DNA of 62,956 bases, taken from Flavobacteriales bacterium (GTDB lineage: Bacteria > Bacteroidota > Bacteroidia > Flavobacteriales_D > Sanyastnellaceae). Shown one piece after another: positions 37,748 through 44,265 of this stretch. The number at the start of each line of letters is the position of its first letter. Within the stretch, counting starts at the first letter, position 1. A program made the translations under genes and the position numbers. The stretch lies in NCBI GenBank assembly GCA_029245065.1, contig JAQWQB010000085.1, positions 1-62,956 on the forward strand, read 5' to 3'. The notes beneath the pieces are model-generated. The model saw only the letters and a list, made by a program, of their open reading frames with translations. It was not told where the DNA came from and did not search any database.

Positions 37748-38002
37748 TTAAGCGTCTTTCGAGACGTTATCGTCTTTTTTCGCTGGCTTTTTCATGATGG
37801 CATACATCACAAATCCGTACCCTCCGAGGATAACAATTGGCGCCAGGGTAATTCTTCTGAAGCTAAAGATTTCTTCACTGAATTCATTTGGATCTTTCGA
37901 CCCACCACCCGACATCAGGAAAAATCCAAGTAGAAGGATCCCGATTCCAATGAGGAGAAGGATGTAGTTCTGGCGTTGAAAAGGGAATTGCTTGTTATCC
38001 AT
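37748..38002 (-). CDS. DUF3098 small membrane protein
   Basis: This 84-residue protein has two membrane helices (about 13-29 and 48-66) around GGGSKDPNEFSEEIFSFRRI, the conserved DUF3098 loop. The function is unknown, but the position between ftsX and uppP is conserved in Bacteroidota. On the minus strand TTTCTTTG sits a few bases before the ATG. Confidence 0.88.
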   Translation of the reverse strand: MDNKQFPFQRQNYILLLIGIGILLLGFFLMSGGGSKDPNEFSEEIFSFRRITLAPIVILGGYGFVMYAIMKKPAKKDDNVSKDA

Positions 38003-38040
38003 GGCGCAAAGAAACGAAATAAATGAAATAAGGAAGCAGC

Positions 38041-38913
38041 TTAATAGAGCTGATCTTGTCTTAGACGAATGTACTTATTTACAGCGAAGTGAGTTGAAAC
38101 CCAAGCGATAAGAATTCCTAAAAGAACCACAATTCCGAAAAGCTTCGCGAAAGTGAAGATGTCAATGGCTTCCAACATGTTACTAGACATTTTTCTGAAC
38201 AGCGCCATGAGCCCAACGATGACGGCAAATGCGAGTATTCCGGCAATGATGCCATACCACACTCCTTTCCGAATGAAGGGCCTTCGAATGAACCCTCTAG
38301 TTGCTCCAACGAGTTGCATGCTTTTGATGATGAACCTGCGGGAGAAAATGGAAAGGCGAATGGTGTTGTTGATGAGTGCGATGGCAATAAGCAGTAGCAA
38401 TCCAGCCAGTACCAGTAGGGGTAAGCTCGCTCGTCTCAAGTTTTCTTCCAGTTTTCCCAAGAGCACTTTTTGGTATTCTACTTCTGTCACACCTTCAACG
38501 GATCCGATGTCTTCGGCAATCCAGTTGAGGCTATCCAACGAAGCATACTGCGGTTCCAATTGGAGGTCGATGCTGGGTGGTATGGGTAGGTAACCTAAGA
38601 AATCAACGAATTCTTCGCCCAACTCCTCTTCCATTGACTGACTGGCTTTTTCTGCCGTGACGTAGTCAGCCAGTTTGGTATATGGCTGTGCTTCCAGCTG
38701 TTTTTTCACTCTGGAAATAGCGGTCTCGTCCATGTCTTTTTCCAGAAAAACCTGAACCAGAACTTGTTCGCGCAGCTGTTCTTGCCATTTTTCTCCGAAA
38801 AGGTACAGCAGAGAAATAAGCCCCAACATTGTGAGTGTCAAGGTCATACCAACTACAGTTGACAGCGAGGTGCTCCAGTTGGAACGGGTTGTTTTAAATG
38901 GCGACTTGAACAT
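38041..38913 (-). CDS. ftsX: Cell-division permease FtsX
   Basis: The 290-residue protein has four membrane helices (about 22-42, 163-181, 218-240 and 255-275) with a large periplasmic loop after the first (about 45-155). Conserved SMQLVGATRGFIRRPF and RLSIFSRRFIIKSMQ match FtsX. With FtsE ATPase (elsewhere) it couples division to peptidoglycan hydrolases, such as the M23 protein in this window. Confidence 0.94.
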   Translation of the reverse strand: MFKSPFKTTRSNWSTSLSTVVGMTLTLTMLGLISLLYLFGEKWQEQLREQVLVQVFLEKDMDETAISRVKKQLEAQPYTKLADYVTAEKASQSMEEELGEEFVDFLGYLPIPPSIDLQLEPQYASLDSLNWIAEDIGSVEGVTEVEYQKVLLGKLEENLRRASLPLLVLAGLLLLIAIALINNTIRLSIFSRRFIIKSMQLVGATRGFIRRPFIRKGVWYGIIAGILAFAVIVGLMALFRKMSSNMLEAIDIFTFAKLFGIVVLLGILIAWVSTHFAVNKYIRLRQDQLY

Positions 38914-39033
38914 GTTACAAAGAAACGGTTAAGGAGGTGTTTTTGGTGTTTTGATTGGATCAAAAGTAAACAGATGGGTGTTGATACCGCCTTCGCTAAA
39001 GCCACGGCGGATAACCATTGGGTCTTGATGCCC

Positions 39034-39132
39034 GTCGAAATCGAATTGGAGTTGGATACCTTCGGTCTGTCCATCAAACAACAGACAGGGACGCTCCGCT
39101 TGCGCGCATCTTGTTGAATAATGGTTCAGTAT
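39034..39132. repeat. REP-like repeat, copy 1
   Basis: This copy matches copy 2 over about 90 bases with small indels. It contains GTCCATCAAACAACAGACAG and CTCCGCTTGCGCGCATC, then GGTTCAGTAT. Its central hairpin is imperfect (GGGACGC against GCATCTT). Confidence 0.8.
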
Positions 39133-39271
39133 AACGTGCACAAATTAATGCTGAACGATTACAAAGTTGTTGTCGGAGGAACGAGTTTGGTTCGGAGCTT
39201 TGCACAGGGAAGGGGCTGGTGATATCCTAGTATAAACGTAAGTTATATGTAAGTGCTTGAAAAGGAAGAGA

Positions 39272-39362
39272 GTCGAAATGGGAGTTGGATACCGTTGGTT
39301 AGTCCATCAAACAACAGACAGGGATGCTCCGCTTGCGCGCATCCCGTTGAATGGTTCAGTAT
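39272..39362. repeat. REP-like repeat, copy 2
   Basis: The second copy lies about 240 bases after the first. Its core is a perfect inverted repeat, GGGATGC and GCATCCC, around an 11-base loop at 39321-39345. Confidence 0.85.
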
Positions 39363-39375
39363 GTCGTTATGAAAA

Positions 39376-39397
39376 GCATGCTCTGCTTGCGCGCATC
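39376..39397. repeat. REP-like repeat, short third copy
   Basis: Only the core CTGCTTGCGCGCATC and a few flanking bases are present, next to the stop of the aspartic-protease gene. Confidence 0.7.
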
Positions 39398-39411
39398 TAA
39401 AAAAACCGACG

Positions 39412-40317
39412 TTACCTTCTGACGTACAATTTACCACCAGGATAATCAGCAATAACGCTTCCAAGTTGTGCGAAAGCATTTCCACCAAGCGCGCCAGAAA
39501 CGCGGTTATCCATGCACATTTCAGACATGATGGTGAAATTGTAGTCTGCGCGTTTAGCGAACCAAACGGGACCAATGGTTACTTCTCCAATGCGCACTTC
39601 AGGCACTTTGATCATGTCTTCTGTGCCAACAGATACGTCGCCACCTTTGATTAATTGCCAATCTGGGTGGCCCTTGGCCCAAGCATCAAAAACAGAGGCG
39701 TTGATAAAACTTCCTGCAATAAGCGAAGCGCTAGTAAGTTGCTTTTGCGCTTCGGATGAGAGTTTAACTTGAGCGCCGGTATCAAATAACATGGGAATAG
39801 TTTGACCATCAACAACCATGAAAAAACGACCACATTTATCGGTCATGCGCAAATACGTGTCGTCAAGGAAGTAGAGGTCTGTCAAAGGCCTGCATGTGCC
39901 ATCCAAATCAGTCAACACGCGCAATTGGGATACATTGTAATCAAACTCCCAGATTTTCCCTCTGAACCATTCTCTTCCCAGCATACCGTCTGCTAGGTGC
40001 TTTCCCTTTGACCGGTACATTTTACGGGACTCAGGAAGAGGAATCTTGTACTTTGGAAAAAGGGTGTCAAACCCCGTATAGCGCCAGAAGTTTTCTCTTT
40101 TGTAACGGATTTTCAATTTCTTGAACCCCCCTTTGTACATCAGGTTTTTGCCACCGGTATCGGTATACATCAAGAGCGTGTCTCCCTTGCTGTTAGGCAC
40201 ACTGAGATAGATGAGGTTGTTCTCAAAACGCGTTGGCAAGATGGTTACTCCGTCAATTGCTGAAGACGCGAATAGTACTCCAAGGGCAACAAGTGATGCT
40301 AAAAAGAGGTGTTTCAT
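39412..40317 (-). CDS. Exported bilobed aspartic protease with two DTG motifs
   Basis: From the ATG at 40317 the product is 301 residues with a signal peptide (about 1-20). Two active-site-like motifs are visible: MYTDTGG (Asp53) and MLFDTGAQ (Asp179). Each is followed by a matching segment: ADGMLGREWF with IWEFDY, and SGALGGNAF with VIADYPGGKLYV. This repeats the DTG plus LG pattern of pepsin-like enzymes in one chain, rather than the single-DTG retropepsin type common in bacteria. The start overlaps the DUF4249 stop by 4 bases (ATGA), so it belongs to the TonB receptor operon. Activity is inferred from motifs only. Confidence 0.78.
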   Translation of the reverse strand: MKHLFLASLVALGVLFASSAIDGVTILPTRFENNLIYLSVPNSKGDTLLMYTDTGGKNLMYKGGFKKLKIRYKRENFWRYTGFDTLFPKYKIPLPESRKMYRSKGKHLADGMLGREWFRGKIWEFDYNVSQLRVLTDLDGTCRPLTDLYFLDDTYLRMTDKCGRFFMVVDGQTIPMLFDTGAQVKLSSEAQKQLTSASLIAGSFINASVFDAWAKGHPDWQLIKGGDVSVGTEDMIKVPEVRIGEVTIGPVWFAKRADYNFTIMSEMCMDNRVSGALGGNAFAQLGSVIADYPGGKLYVRR

Positions 40318-41150
40318 TCCGCAATGATCGTGCTTTTTGTAGAAATACCGGCAGCACCCCAATAACCAAGCGCTCCATTGGACAAGTTTGTCTCAACATT
40401 TGCTGGAGGGGCGTCAAATAAGCCACCATTCCATTGGGTTTCATTCATGATGCCAATGAAGATGTCGTAGGCTTCTTCGCCAATGTTATATTGCTCAATG
40501 AGCACCGTATCTCCAATAGTAGCTTCAGTCTCAATGTCGAGATAGTCTACCTCGATATCTTCTACGTAAACACCATCGTACGCCTCATCGTCAACGAAGG
40601 TCAACTCACGCAAGGTGTCACGAACAGATTCATTGTTTACATACGTTTGCCACATGTAACGGTCTCCAGTTCCAGGAAGCTCTTGGGTCCAAATTCGAAC
40701 ACTGTAGTAAGAATCTCCAGGAAACCCGAACTCTTCAAAAGGATCCAATACACGCACGTGAAGTGAGTCAACAGGTGCAACTTCTCTCAGGAAAGAAGAA
40801 GCGGTGTATTCTTCACCTTCCACCTCGATGTTGATCGTATAAGTTGTGTTTGGAACACCAGCAACAATAGGAGTTAAATACACACCAGGAGCTGTTTCAG
40901 AGAGCTCCCAATTATTGTCACCATCTGTGATGTTCAACAATGCTCCTTCTACTCTTGGTGCAGCTTCATTTGCGAAGTAGCTGGTAGTCCAAGTGAGGTT
41001 TACTTCGTGCTGTTTTTCTTCGTTGGTGAACCAACCTTCAACAACCAGGCGTCTTCCGTCCTGATCATTCAAATCAAGATCAATTCGTTCGGTGCAGCTA
41101 GCCAAAGAAATCAGGACAAGTGCGAATGATAGGGATGTGAACTTTTTCAT
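40314..41150 (-). CDS. DUF4249 lipoprotein
   Basis: This 278-residue lipoprotein (signal ending SLASC, Cys19) has the DUF4249 opening ERIDLDLNDQDGRRLVVEGW and several beta-strands. DUF4249 proteins are nearly always next to a TonB-dependent receptor, as here (5-base gap), and probably act as a surface lid or binding partner. It is followed by the aspartic protease through an ATGA overlap. Confidence 0.9.
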   Translation of the reverse strand: MKKFTSLSFALVLISLASCTERIDLDLNDQDGRRLVVEGWFTNEEKQHEVNLTWTTSYFANEAAPRVEGALLNITDGDNNWELSETAPGVYLTPIVAGVPNTTYTINIEVEGEEYTASSFLREVAPVDSLHVRVLDPFEEFGFPGDSYYSVRIWTQELPGTGDRYMWQTYVNNESVRDTLRELTFVDDEAYDGVYVEDIEVDYLDIETEATIGDTVLIEQYNIGEEAYDIFIGIMNETQWNGGLFDAPPANVETNLSNGALGYWGAAGISTKSTIIAE

Positions 41151-41155
41151 CGTGA

Positions 41156-43492
41156 TTAAAATTTGAAGTTATACGTAACAGCAGGAATGACTGGGAGCAA
41201 GTACGTTTGCTCAGCATATGTAAGCTGTGGGTTCTGTTCGTCTTGGACGAAGTTGATTGAATAAGCATTGTGCCTGTTATAGGCATTGTAAATAGAGAAC
41301 ACCCATTCTCCATCCCAGTTTCTTGTGGCATTCTTACGTGGAGTAAGGGTTGCCGAAAAGTCCAAACGGTGGTATGAAGGCATGCGTTCACCATTTCGAT
41401 CGGAGTACACCGGTACTACCATTCCAAGGTATTCGAATCGTCCTGTTGGCATGGTAACCGCATTCCCCGTGCTGTAAACCCAGTTCATCCCGAACGACCA
41501 TTTTTCATTCAATTCATAGGACACCACTACAGAGGCATCGTGTGTTCTGTCGTAGTTCGAAGGGTACCAATCGCCGTAAATTTCAGGTATGAACCGTTCT
41601 GAGCGGGCCAACGTATAGGAGGCCAAACCGGTCAATCTACCCGCTTGCTTTCTGACCATGAACTCCAATCCGTATGCGCGAGAACTTCCTGTTCTTAGCT
41701 CCCCTTCTAAGTAAGTATTCAGCAGTAGCTGGGCATGATCGCGGAAGTCAATTGTGTTCTGCATATCCTTGTAATACGCCTCAACAGATGCTTCCAACTT
41801 GTTGTTGAAGAAGTTTCTAAAATAGCCAATCGCGTACTGGTCGGCAATCTGCGGTTTGATATTCGGACTAGCAGAGAACCACACATCAAGCGGTGAGGAT
41901 GAAGTGCTGTTGGTAGCCAACTGAAGGTATTGATAGGTGCGGTTGTAACTTGCCTTCACAGAGCTAAACCCGTTGATGCGGTAATTCACCCCAATTCGCG
42001 GTTCGAAACCTCCATAGGTTTGATATGGTCCAGAGCTATGAACAGTAGAATCCACCACATTGTATTCTGAGTCGTATTGGAAAACAGTTCCTGGTCCAAC
42101 ATTCTGGAAGAGGGAGTAGCGAATTCCGTAGATCGCCGACAGTTGGTCTGTGATTTTGTGTTCGTTACTTATATAGGCTGCGTAATCAACTGAGTTGTTC
42201 AGTGGAACACGAATTTCCTGTAAAAGGGAAGGCTCCCCGGTACCTCGTGCAAAGCCTGGGTCAAGTTTTCTATAGGTTCCCGAAACGCCGAATTGAAACG
42301 TATGCGAAGGGTTTACGAAGTAGTTGTAATCGAGCTTCGCCGTGACATCCTTGATTTCAGATTCCCATAAGAAGCCAAAATCTTCATCGTCTTGCTCCAA
42401 GAAGTAATCGTAATCAGAGTACGTCAGTGTTAAGTTAGAGAAGAGCTTGTTGTTGTAAATGTGGTTCCAACGTGCGGTTCCTGTGGTGTTTCCCCAACCA
42501 AATCCGAAGATGTCGCCAAACCCGAATTTGTCTCTACCGAAATACCCACTCAAGTATACCCGGTCATCATCTCCTAGCTTGTAATTGGCTTTCAGGTTCA
42601 AGTCGTAAAAGTAGAGCTGGGTGTTTTTTACGGCTTCGTCTTTGCTGAAAATCAAGAACGCATCAGCATAGGTTCTTCGACCCGCAATCAACAAGGAACC
42701 TCTGTCTTTTTTGATCGGCCCTTCTAGCGTTAGGCGCGAAGAAATGGTTCCAATTCCTCCTTGTCCGTGCCACTCCTTATTGTTTCCATCTTTCATTCGA
42801 ATATCCAGTACCGAAGAAAGTCTTCCACCATAACGAGCAGGAATACCGCCCTTGTAGAGTTGAACGTCTTTGATGGCGTCTGAATTGAAAACAGAGAAGA
42901 AACCGAGCAAGTGTGATGCGTTGTATACAGGCGATTCGTCCAGGAGGATGAGGTTTTGATCAACAGCACCTCCTCGAACATAGAAGCCTGAACTTCCCTC
43001 TCCTGCAGCTTGCACTCCAGGGAGCAACTGTATGGCCTTGATCACATCAACCTCTCCCATGAAAGCAGGGATCTTTTTAATGGCATCCATTTGCATGTTC
43101 ACCGTTGACATTTCGGTTGATTCAATGTTCTTGGTGGCCTCTTTTTCAGCTTCAATGACCGCTTCGCCCACTTGCACCCCAACAGAGTTCAATTGAAGAT
43201 CCAGTCGGAGGTCAGCGCTGAGTTCAACTTCTTTAATGAGCTGTTCATAGCCGAGGTAAGAAATACGCAGTGTGTACTTGCCTTTGGGAAGGGTAAGTGA
43301 ATAAAAGCCGTACACGTTGGTAGCCGTACCTCGTTGAATTTCATTCACGAAGATGGTAGCACCAATGAGTTCTTCTCCAGAAGCGTTATCTGTGATGTTT
43401 CCGCTAATGGAATAATTATTCTGCGCTTGGCTACTGAAACCAAACCCCAGAAGGATTATTAAAAGAGAGAGGGAGTGTTTATACATTTTCAA
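41156..43492 (-). CDS. TonB-dependent outer-membrane receptor with CarboxypepD-like N-domain
   Basis: The 778-residue protein has a signal peptide, an N-terminal carboxypeptidase-regulatory-like domain (residues about 25-110: SISGNITDNASGEELIGATI), a plug (about 130-240, with GGAVDQNLILLDESPVYN) and a long barrel ending in VTYNFKF with the terminal Phe. It should import a ligand using TonB energy. The partner genes downstream are a DUF4249 lipoprotein and an aspartic protease, so a peptide or protein-derived ligand is plausible. There is no SusD. Confidence 0.93.
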   Translation of the reverse strand: MKMYKHSLSLLIILLGFGFSSQAQNNYSISGNITDNASGEELIGATIFVNEIQRGTATNVYGFYSLTLPKGKYTLRISYLGYEQLIKEVELSADLRLDLQLNSVGVQVGEAVIEAEKEATKNIESTEMSTVNMQMDAIKKIPAFMGEVDVIKAIQLLPGVQAAGEGSSGFYVRGGAVDQNLILLDESPVYNASHLLGFFSVFNSDAIKDVQLYKGGIPARYGGRLSSVLDIRMKDGNNKEWHGQGGIGTISSRLTLEGPIKKDRGSLLIAGRRTYADAFLIFSKDEAVKNTQLYFYDLNLKANYKLGDDDRVYLSGYFGRDKFGFGDIFGFGWGNTTGTARWNHIYNNKLFSNLTLTYSDYDYFLEQDDEDFGFLWESEIKDVTAKLDYNYFVNPSHTFQFGVSGTYRKLDPGFARGTGEPSLLQEIRVPLNNSVDYAAYISNEHKITDQLSAIYGIRYSLFQNVGPGTVFQYDSEYNVVDSTVHSSGPYQTYGGFEPRIGVNYRINGFSSVKASYNRTYQYLQLATNSTSSSPLDVWFSASPNIKPQIADQYAIGYFRNFFNNKLEASVEAYYKDMQNTIDFRDHAQLLLNTYLEGELRTGSSRAYGLEFMVRKQAGRLTGLASYTLARSERFIPEIYGDWYPSNYDRTHDASVVVSYELNEKWSFGMNWVYSTGNAVTMPTGRFEYLGMVVPVYSDRNGERMPSYHRLDFSATLTPRKNATRNWDGEWVFSIYNAYNRHNAYSINFVQDEQNPQLTYAEQTYLLPVIPAVTYNFKF

Positions 43493-43590
43493 GGTGTAGA
43501 TTCAATTGAAAGACAGCACTATCTTTAAAGGTTGCATGCAAATCAACATACGTTAGTCGACTGTTCAATGCGTTTTGTTACACGCTAACG

Positions 43591-43598
43591 CAAATTTA
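43591..43598 (-). promoter_or_regulatory. -7 element for the TonB receptor operon
   Basis: On the minus strand TAAATTTG matches TAnnTTTG. It predicts a leader of about 90 bases. The rest of the gap up to 43779 shows nothing else. Confidence 0.5.
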
Positions 43599-43779
43599 AT
43601 TTCACGATTACATTTCGACCGCAAATTTTAGGGCAATAGTTGGAAGGCATCAGACAAAAATGCCCAATGGAAACAATTTGTGGTGAATGGTTAGCGCTTG
43701 TTCAAACGCAACGATGAAGCATCAGAATCCAGGTCGAAAAGAAAGTTCAACCATTCAAGAATGAAAATAAAATGGGGGA

Positions 43780-44265
43780 TTAACCTCCGATGAGACGCTT
43801 TCTGTCAGCATCTGTTGCTTCGCGAACAGAAGTAACTTCACCGTCGAAGTACAAGTCAATTCCAGCCAAAGGATGGTTGAAATCAAGTGTTACCGTGTCT
43901 TTAGCTGTAGCTATAACAACACCTTCTAACTCGTTTCCTTCGTCGTCAGACATTGGAATGATTTCGCCTTCTTGAAGCAAATCTTCGTCCAACTCGCCGT
44001 CTACAACAAAGTTCTCTTTTGGGAACTCAACAATTGCTTCTGGATCTTCAGGTCCGTATGCTTGTTCACATGGAATGCTAACAGAAAATGCTTGTCCGGC
44101 TTCTCTACCTTCCAACTCATCTTCAAACGCTTTGAGCATTTCTTCTTCTTTGAAGATAAACTCAAAAATTTCTTCCTTGGTTGTTTCTTCGATAAGATCT
44201 CCGTCAGGCCCGTCTTGGTAGAGGCTGTAATCAACAGAAATCAACATTCCTTTAGCAACTTTCAT
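43780..44265 (-). CDS. FKBP-type peptidyl-prolyl isomerase, SlyD-like
   Basis: This 161-residue protein matches SlyD: VDYSLYQDGPDGDLIEET at the start, the insert-in-flap region, and FNHPLAGIDLYFDGEVTSV, the conserved NHPLAG segment of the FKBP fold. It has no signal peptide and no His-rich tail, so a cytosolic foldase is likely and metal storage is not. Confidence 0.92.
   Translation of the reverse strand: MKVAKGMLISVDYSLYQDGPDGDLIEETTKEEIFEFIFKEEEMLKAFEDELEGREAGQAFSVSIPCEQAYGPEDPEAIVEFPKENFVVDGELDEDLLQEGEIIPMSDDEGNELEGVVIATAKDTVTLDFNHPLAGIDLYFDGEVTSVREATDADRKRLIGG

Follow-up and report, generated by a model that had tools for sequence, protein, structure and literature searches.

In a 62,956-nucleotide stretch of Flavobacteriales bacterium DNA (contig JAQWQB010000085.1, positions 1 to 62,956, assembly GCA_029245065.1; hereafter the window), a TonB-dependent receptor, a DUF4249 protein and a two-lobed aspartic protease are encoded by three closely spaced genes on the minus strand. 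Comparison with relatives suggests that this arrangement joins two unrelated things, an old receptor-DUF4249 module standing before ftsX and an exported aspartic protease that arrived later, a reading to which we assign a probability of about 0.77.

The receptor gene (41156-43486, 776 aa) begins at an ATG at position 43486, the listed start at 43492 being a TTG, and its product carries a CarbopepD_reg_2 N-terminal domain (Pfam PF00593, E 2e-21; PF13715, E 2.6e-19; PF07715, E 2e-9). It is followed after a gap of 5 bases by the DUF4249 gene (40314-41150, minus strand, 278 aa; PF14054, E 1.6e-27), whose product has a lipoprotein-like start (SLASC, read by eye). The protease gene (39412-40317, minus strand, 301 aa), recognized from an AlphaFold2 model and fold matches, overlaps the DUF4249 stop with its own start codon as ATGA and encodes a signal-peptide-like start. 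The next gene after the protease is ftsX (38041-38913, minus strand), with PF18075 and PF02687 above their cut-offs and TIGR00439 at E 5.2e-50, below its curated cut-off. A preliminary description made from the sequence had reported this tight linkage, and its coordinates, motifs and residue numbering proved correct; it had gone further and proposed that the three genes form one system for peptide or protein uptake in which the protease trims the cargo or the receptor.

Close orthologues of the window DUF4249 protein (55-78% identity) were located at eight loci, in genomes G011, G031, G004, G024, G025, G005, G033 and G015, and the protease was absent from all eight. In six of these loci (G011, G031, G004, G024, G005 and, after a second DUF4249 gene, G025) the next gene after DUF4249 was ftsX, while other genes lay downstream in G033 and G015; the G015 locus begins at a contig edge, with the receptor outside it. 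The FtsX proteins of these six loci were 75% (G011, G031), 71% (G004, G024), 43% (G005) and 34% (G025, over 164 residues) identical to that of the window. Between the window and G011, identity reached 74.5% for the receptor (773 aligned positions), 76% for DUF4249 and 75% for FtsX, and was 37.5% for the protease. The window protease was also nearer to its homologues in G039, G057 and L008 (43-44%) than to those of the same-family genomes G011 and G031 (36%). The protease looks inserted because the receptor-DUF4249 pair runs on into ftsX in six relatives, which carry receptor, DUF4249 and ftsX as a set without the protease and thus do not bear out the proposed three-gene functional set. The expectation that DUF4249 proteins stand beside TonB receptors was upheld at 10 of the 11 DUF4249 loci read, the eleventh beginning at a contig edge. 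The G025 locus (L041) additionally shows a tandem pair of DUF4249 genes behind a single TonB receptor.

Gene order was likewise read around protease homologues, in 11 stretches (nine intact and two decayed homologues), the shortest a contig of 6.6 kb and the longest 19.5 kb. No match to the window receptor or DUF4249 protein was obtained in any of them (tblastn, E 1e-3), nor was any receptor or DUF4249 match seen in the 30 kb read for G724. The same three-gene order, for which the preliminary description had suggested a search of Bacteroidota genomes, was found in 0 of the 11 protease stretches and in 0 of the 8 DUF4249 orthologue loci, and the protease of relatives is unlinked to the receptor, the very outcome that the description had named as telling against a linked set. 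In G011 and G031, the protease gene is located elsewhere (about 2.7 Mb away in G011, on another contig in G031), where its start codon again shares an ATGA with the stop codon of an esterase-like gene. The other three DUF4249 matches of the window's own genome (one below cut-off) lie on contigs without this protease or any PF13650 match. Of 148 Bacteroidota genomes sampled, the window's own included, 50 contained both PF13650 and DUF4249 matches, and in the 20 with both on one contig the nearest were 51 kb apart among the matches listed; these same-contig cases were picked by eye, and the DUF4249 places of some genomes (e.g., G409, G414, G512 and G520) fall outside the matches listed. The tight spacing, the common strand, the ATGA overlap and the exported appearance of all three products would suit a single uptake system, yet the gene order of relatives on both sides of the comparison, and the identical overlap made with an esterase-like gene, leave a protease acting on the receptor or on its cargo without support, and we regard this explanation as unlikely.

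The spacer between the protease and ftsX (38914-39411) was found to be rich in repeats by repeat searches. It contains a 76-nucleotide direct repeat (39044-39119 and 39277-39352, 89% identical) together with a portion of a dispersed element roughly 110 nucleotides long (39133-39246), which recurs elsewhere in the same genome in four copies of 105-114 nucleotides (contigs C8, C130, C68 and C91) and one of 68 nucleotides (C15), at 79-83% identity. Shorter repeats were found as well, and an 18-base spacer pattern, allowing up to 1 mismatch, matched 8 genomic positions, of which 3 lie in this spacer. The DUF4249-ftsX spacer of G011 and G031 measures about 90 bases, and the window spacer showed no similarity to the six relative loci beyond 15-base matches. 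These repeats fit a repeat-associated insertion. By parsimony, we infer that the protease gene entered between DUF4249 and ftsX later and that protease and transporter were probably never a long-standing functional unit.

Several points weigh against this later arrival or loosen its support. The repeats could postdate the insertion, and the GC content and codon use of the protease gene are ordinary (rank 29 of 43 mechanically picked open reading frames of the window), so that no sign of recent foreign origin is given by its composition. The relatives searched included no other species of the genus, and the insertion is for that reason not datable. In genome G543, a receptor-DUF4249 pair stands about 12 kb from a protease homologue (C1 213294-227400, L122), which is also a point in favor of the uptake system; the interval between them holds several open reading frames on both strands, and we estimate such proximity by chance at about 3% for one genome (4 DUF4249 matches in about 3.6 Mb), which makes the pair unsurprising over 11 loci. 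The DUF4249 protein of this pair was missed by tblastn and caught by the Pfam profile, and its partner was caught by the receptor query; because the DUF4249 query is weak for distant copies, the absence reported above rests mainly on the receptor query. The protease also has a sub-threshold PF13650 score (19.8 bits vs a cut-off of 24.3, at the second DTG motif), and co-transcription of the three genes in this lineage is possible and could benefit the cell. A tree of 10 proteins, in which 5 of 7 inner branches were open, long branches met and the window protein was unplaced, is not evidence of transfer.

Sequence features of the protease were read next to those of its family. Residues 1-19 (40261-40317, minus strand) form a probable signal peptide ending at SSA|ID without a lipobox Cys, called by eye following the general rules for signal peptides and lipoboxes. 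Two DTG motifs, each followed by an LG-type segment, are present as initially reported: Asp53 of the lobe 1 DTGG (codon 40159-40161) with M112-L113-G114 (MLG, 39976-39984), and Asp179 of the lobe 2 DTGA (codon 39781-39783, within the sub-threshold PF13650 match at residues 169-194) with A276-L277-G278 (ALG, 39484-39492), all on the minus strand. All 10 intact members of the family in the comparison, the window protein among them, kept both Asp residues, lobe 1 reading DTG in every case and lobe 2 reading DTG in 8, DSG in 1 and DLG in 1; the hydrophobic-hydrophobic-Gly pattern was conserved in the family in both lobes. Among 20,000 shuffles of the protein, two D[TS]G motifs arose in 463 and two copies of a longer motif, composed after the protein had been seen, in 1. 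The paired motifs thus exceed chance expectation, and their conservation in the family is the stronger evidence. Profile comparison of the two halves brought the DTG motifs into register whichever half served as query, and the LG motifs in one of the two comparisons (with lobe 2 as query, E 1.8e-4 and a probability of 23%; in reverse, E 1.2e-3 and 8%), and homology between the lobes is only suggestive because these probabilities are low.

AlphaFold2, given an alignment of six sequences, produced a best model with a pLDDT of 85.8 and a pTM of 0.84 (the other four models reached pLDDTs of 75.6-77.2), in which residues 1-19 scored under 50. The top Foldseek match was the Bacteroides fragilis structure 9iy9 (E 1.3e-9), followed by renins, endothiapepsin and others, and a second structure aligner gave 9iy9 a Z-score of 18.4 with an rmsd of 3.3 over 238 residues. 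Structure prediction and fold matches thus agree with the single-chain, two-lobed architecture that had been suggested from the motifs, and by predicted fold the window protease is a single-chain two-lobed aspartic protease; superposition of its whole chain on pepsins lends indirect support to two catalytic Asp residues that would face each other across the cleft. A fungal aspartyl peptidase, renins, pepsins and others matched with Z-scores of 12.8-13.7 over about residues 20-301, covering both lobes, as would be expected if the protein were a true family A1 pepsin derived from a eukaryote or from a known bacterial A1 group. This origin is highly improbable, as the fold match standing clearly ahead of the others was the bacterial 9iy9, PF00026 (family A1) gave no match at E up to 1, and the profile match described below was to Bacteroidota PF13650-type proteins; published bacterial A1 homologues are, moreover, reported to have no signal peptides in a passage of PMC2761423. 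Sequence searches of solved structures with the window protease and its profile returned chance-level matches only and no pepsin, one of these matches being a retroviral protease (E 2) over the second DTG. The link to 9iy9 is accordingly drawn from the fold matches and not from sequence search; separately, a member of the wider family gave a weak sequence match to 9iy9 (first lobe of that member, E 8e-4).

Five intact members of the window branch that were scanned also fell below the PF13650 cut-off or had no match, and NCBIfam gave no match for the window protease or for one homologue. A profile of the window branch nevertheless aligned with seven Bacteroidota two-lobed proteins, some with PDZ domains, at a probability of 98.4% (hhalign, E 6e-15, 238 columns) with both DTG motifs in register. 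Profile homology over both lobes, two DTG motifs and a two-lobed fold were thus found for this protein, at a PF13650 score below the cut-off. The best reading places the window protease in a divergent branch, patchy in its distribution, of the Bacteroidota two-lobed (PF13650-like) aspartic proteases; no paper on this branch was found in the literature searched.

The wider group is common. In the Bacteroidota sample, 58 of the 148 genomes had a PF13650 match, and open reading frames with two such matches occurred in 27 of the 148 (30 in total, their catalytic status not being implied). Since the window protease joins this group by profile, the view that such single-chain enzymes are rare in bacteria is not supported. 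The window branch proper was present in 7 of 399 genomes of the order (its own, four intact and two decayed; five weak matches in the tally of 12 were left out) and in 3 of 395 genomes of the phylum (its own and two others; the tally of 8 includes five weak matches). An alignment scan of a wider collection of genome contigs yielded 5 loci, of which one came from a Gemmatimonadota record and another two lay on the contigs of G039 and G031, and a single-protein scan of the same collection gave 18 pattern matches and no relative. The decayed homologues comprise L006 (G015), with an internal deletion and its pieces in different frames, and L018 (G068), with five stops, and these copies show the branch in the process of being lost in some relatives.

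Such decay would also be consistent with a two-lobed protein devoid of catalytic activity, whose role would be to bind peptides or a partner. The Gemmatimonadota homologue L012 has DLG in lobe 2, and of the seven wider-group proteins aligned one (L035) has neither Asp and another (L034) has DFG in lobe 2. In the window protease, the standard flap Tyr (Tyr75 equivalent) could not be assigned in a region that is partly weakly modeled, residues 71-80 and 101-110 being less sure (mean pLDDT 68 and 73). The DTG and LG motifs of the window protein are intact in both lobes, however, and with the Asp residues retained throughout the intact branch members, loss of catalysis is improbable, if slightly less so than the shared uptake system.

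Taken together, an old outer-membrane module consisting of a TonB receptor and a DUF4249 lipoprotein ahead of ftsX would have received, in this lineage, a protease gene of a divergent branch between DUF4249 and ftsX. The protease is probably carried on the transcript of the module, with its translation coupled to that of DUF4249 through the ATGA overlap, and the signal peptide would take it to the periplasm. There, its two lobes would each contribute one DTG psi-loop Asp to a shared cleft, and the most likely activity is cleavage of peptide bonds in the general manner of aspartic proteases. A more speculative and doubtful extension is that a small, unnamed family of exported single-chain aspartic proteases, recognizable by lobe 2 sequences of its own (given below), moves between genomes, settles 3' of unrelated operons by ATGA coupling and, in this lineage, now works with the TonB-DUF4249 transporter. 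The locus provides a case in which tight spacing and an ATGA overlap mimic a functional operon and comparison points to insertion. It also exposes an under-annotated branch, below the Pfam cut-off and without an NCBIfam match, strengthens the case that aspartic proteases of the single-chain, two-lobed type are common among Bacteroidota, and bears on the origin of pepsin-like enzymes from one-lobe ancestors; no new kind of system is opened by it.

Further observations concern the surroundings of these genes. Two homologue contigs that are otherwise different, L008 (940-1569) and L010 (5970-6590), encode similar-looking proteins sharing an LTPGRQRGY stretch, about 0.7 kb (L008) and about 0.4 kb (L010) before the protease homologue. 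These were named YdeI-like by eye, as were the esterase-like, LysR-type and DEAD-box neighbors. The window's own genome encodes a second aspartic-protease-like protein (L060 1333-2412, contig C12 near 13175), which has a single PF13650 match (E 8.4e-8), another DTG beyond it and then AMPK1_CBM (E 4.3e-23) and CBM_48 matches, the makeup of a fusion between a retropepsin-like lobe and a domain of the glycogen-recognition type. The DUF4249 protein folded alone gave a pLDDT of 31 and its model was not used, and Rfam returned nothing above gathering scores for positions 38000-44000. Promoter-like sites (4 vs a shuffle mean of 8.4) and terminator-like sites (11 vs 5.7, sd 2.6) were not used either.

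Among known systems, the BT2172/BT2173 operon, in which a DUF4249 protein is encoded next to a TonB receptor, offers the same pairing as the window, whereas the passage describing it (PMC11003636) mentions no protease. The structure 9iy9 ("putative endopeptidase" or "Exported protein", B. fragilis, released 2025-08-06), for which a literature search found no paper, shares with the window protease the two-lobed fold, export by name and an origin in Bacteroidota, but the two are 14% identical and only residues 155-437 of its 420-residue chain align. Family A1 pepsins are likewise single chains of two lobes with a psi-loop and an Asp in each; few bacteria are reported to possess them (Rawlings and Bateman 2009, PMC2761423), and the lack of a signal peptide in the bacterial homologues of that passage differs from the signal-peptide-like start in the window. 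The RloA secreted retropepsin-like proteins of Pseudomonas are described in PMC12239564 as DTG aspartic proteases with a signal peptide, as in the window, and one of them is operon-encoded, but RloA has one lobe per chain and is a dimer, whereas both lobes of the window protease lie in one chain. Further counterparts are the Bacteroidota PF13650 two-domain proteins with or without a C-terminal PDZ domain (e.g., L020, L023 and L031); according to PMC6411480, functional characterization of the PDZ-linked aspartyl proteases is still to come. Like the window protease, these proteins have two DTG-type lobes per chain; the window branch differs from them in having no PDZ domain and in two sequence stretches peculiar to its lobe 2, SFINA-FDxW-HPxW and KRxDxNFxxMSxxFMD.

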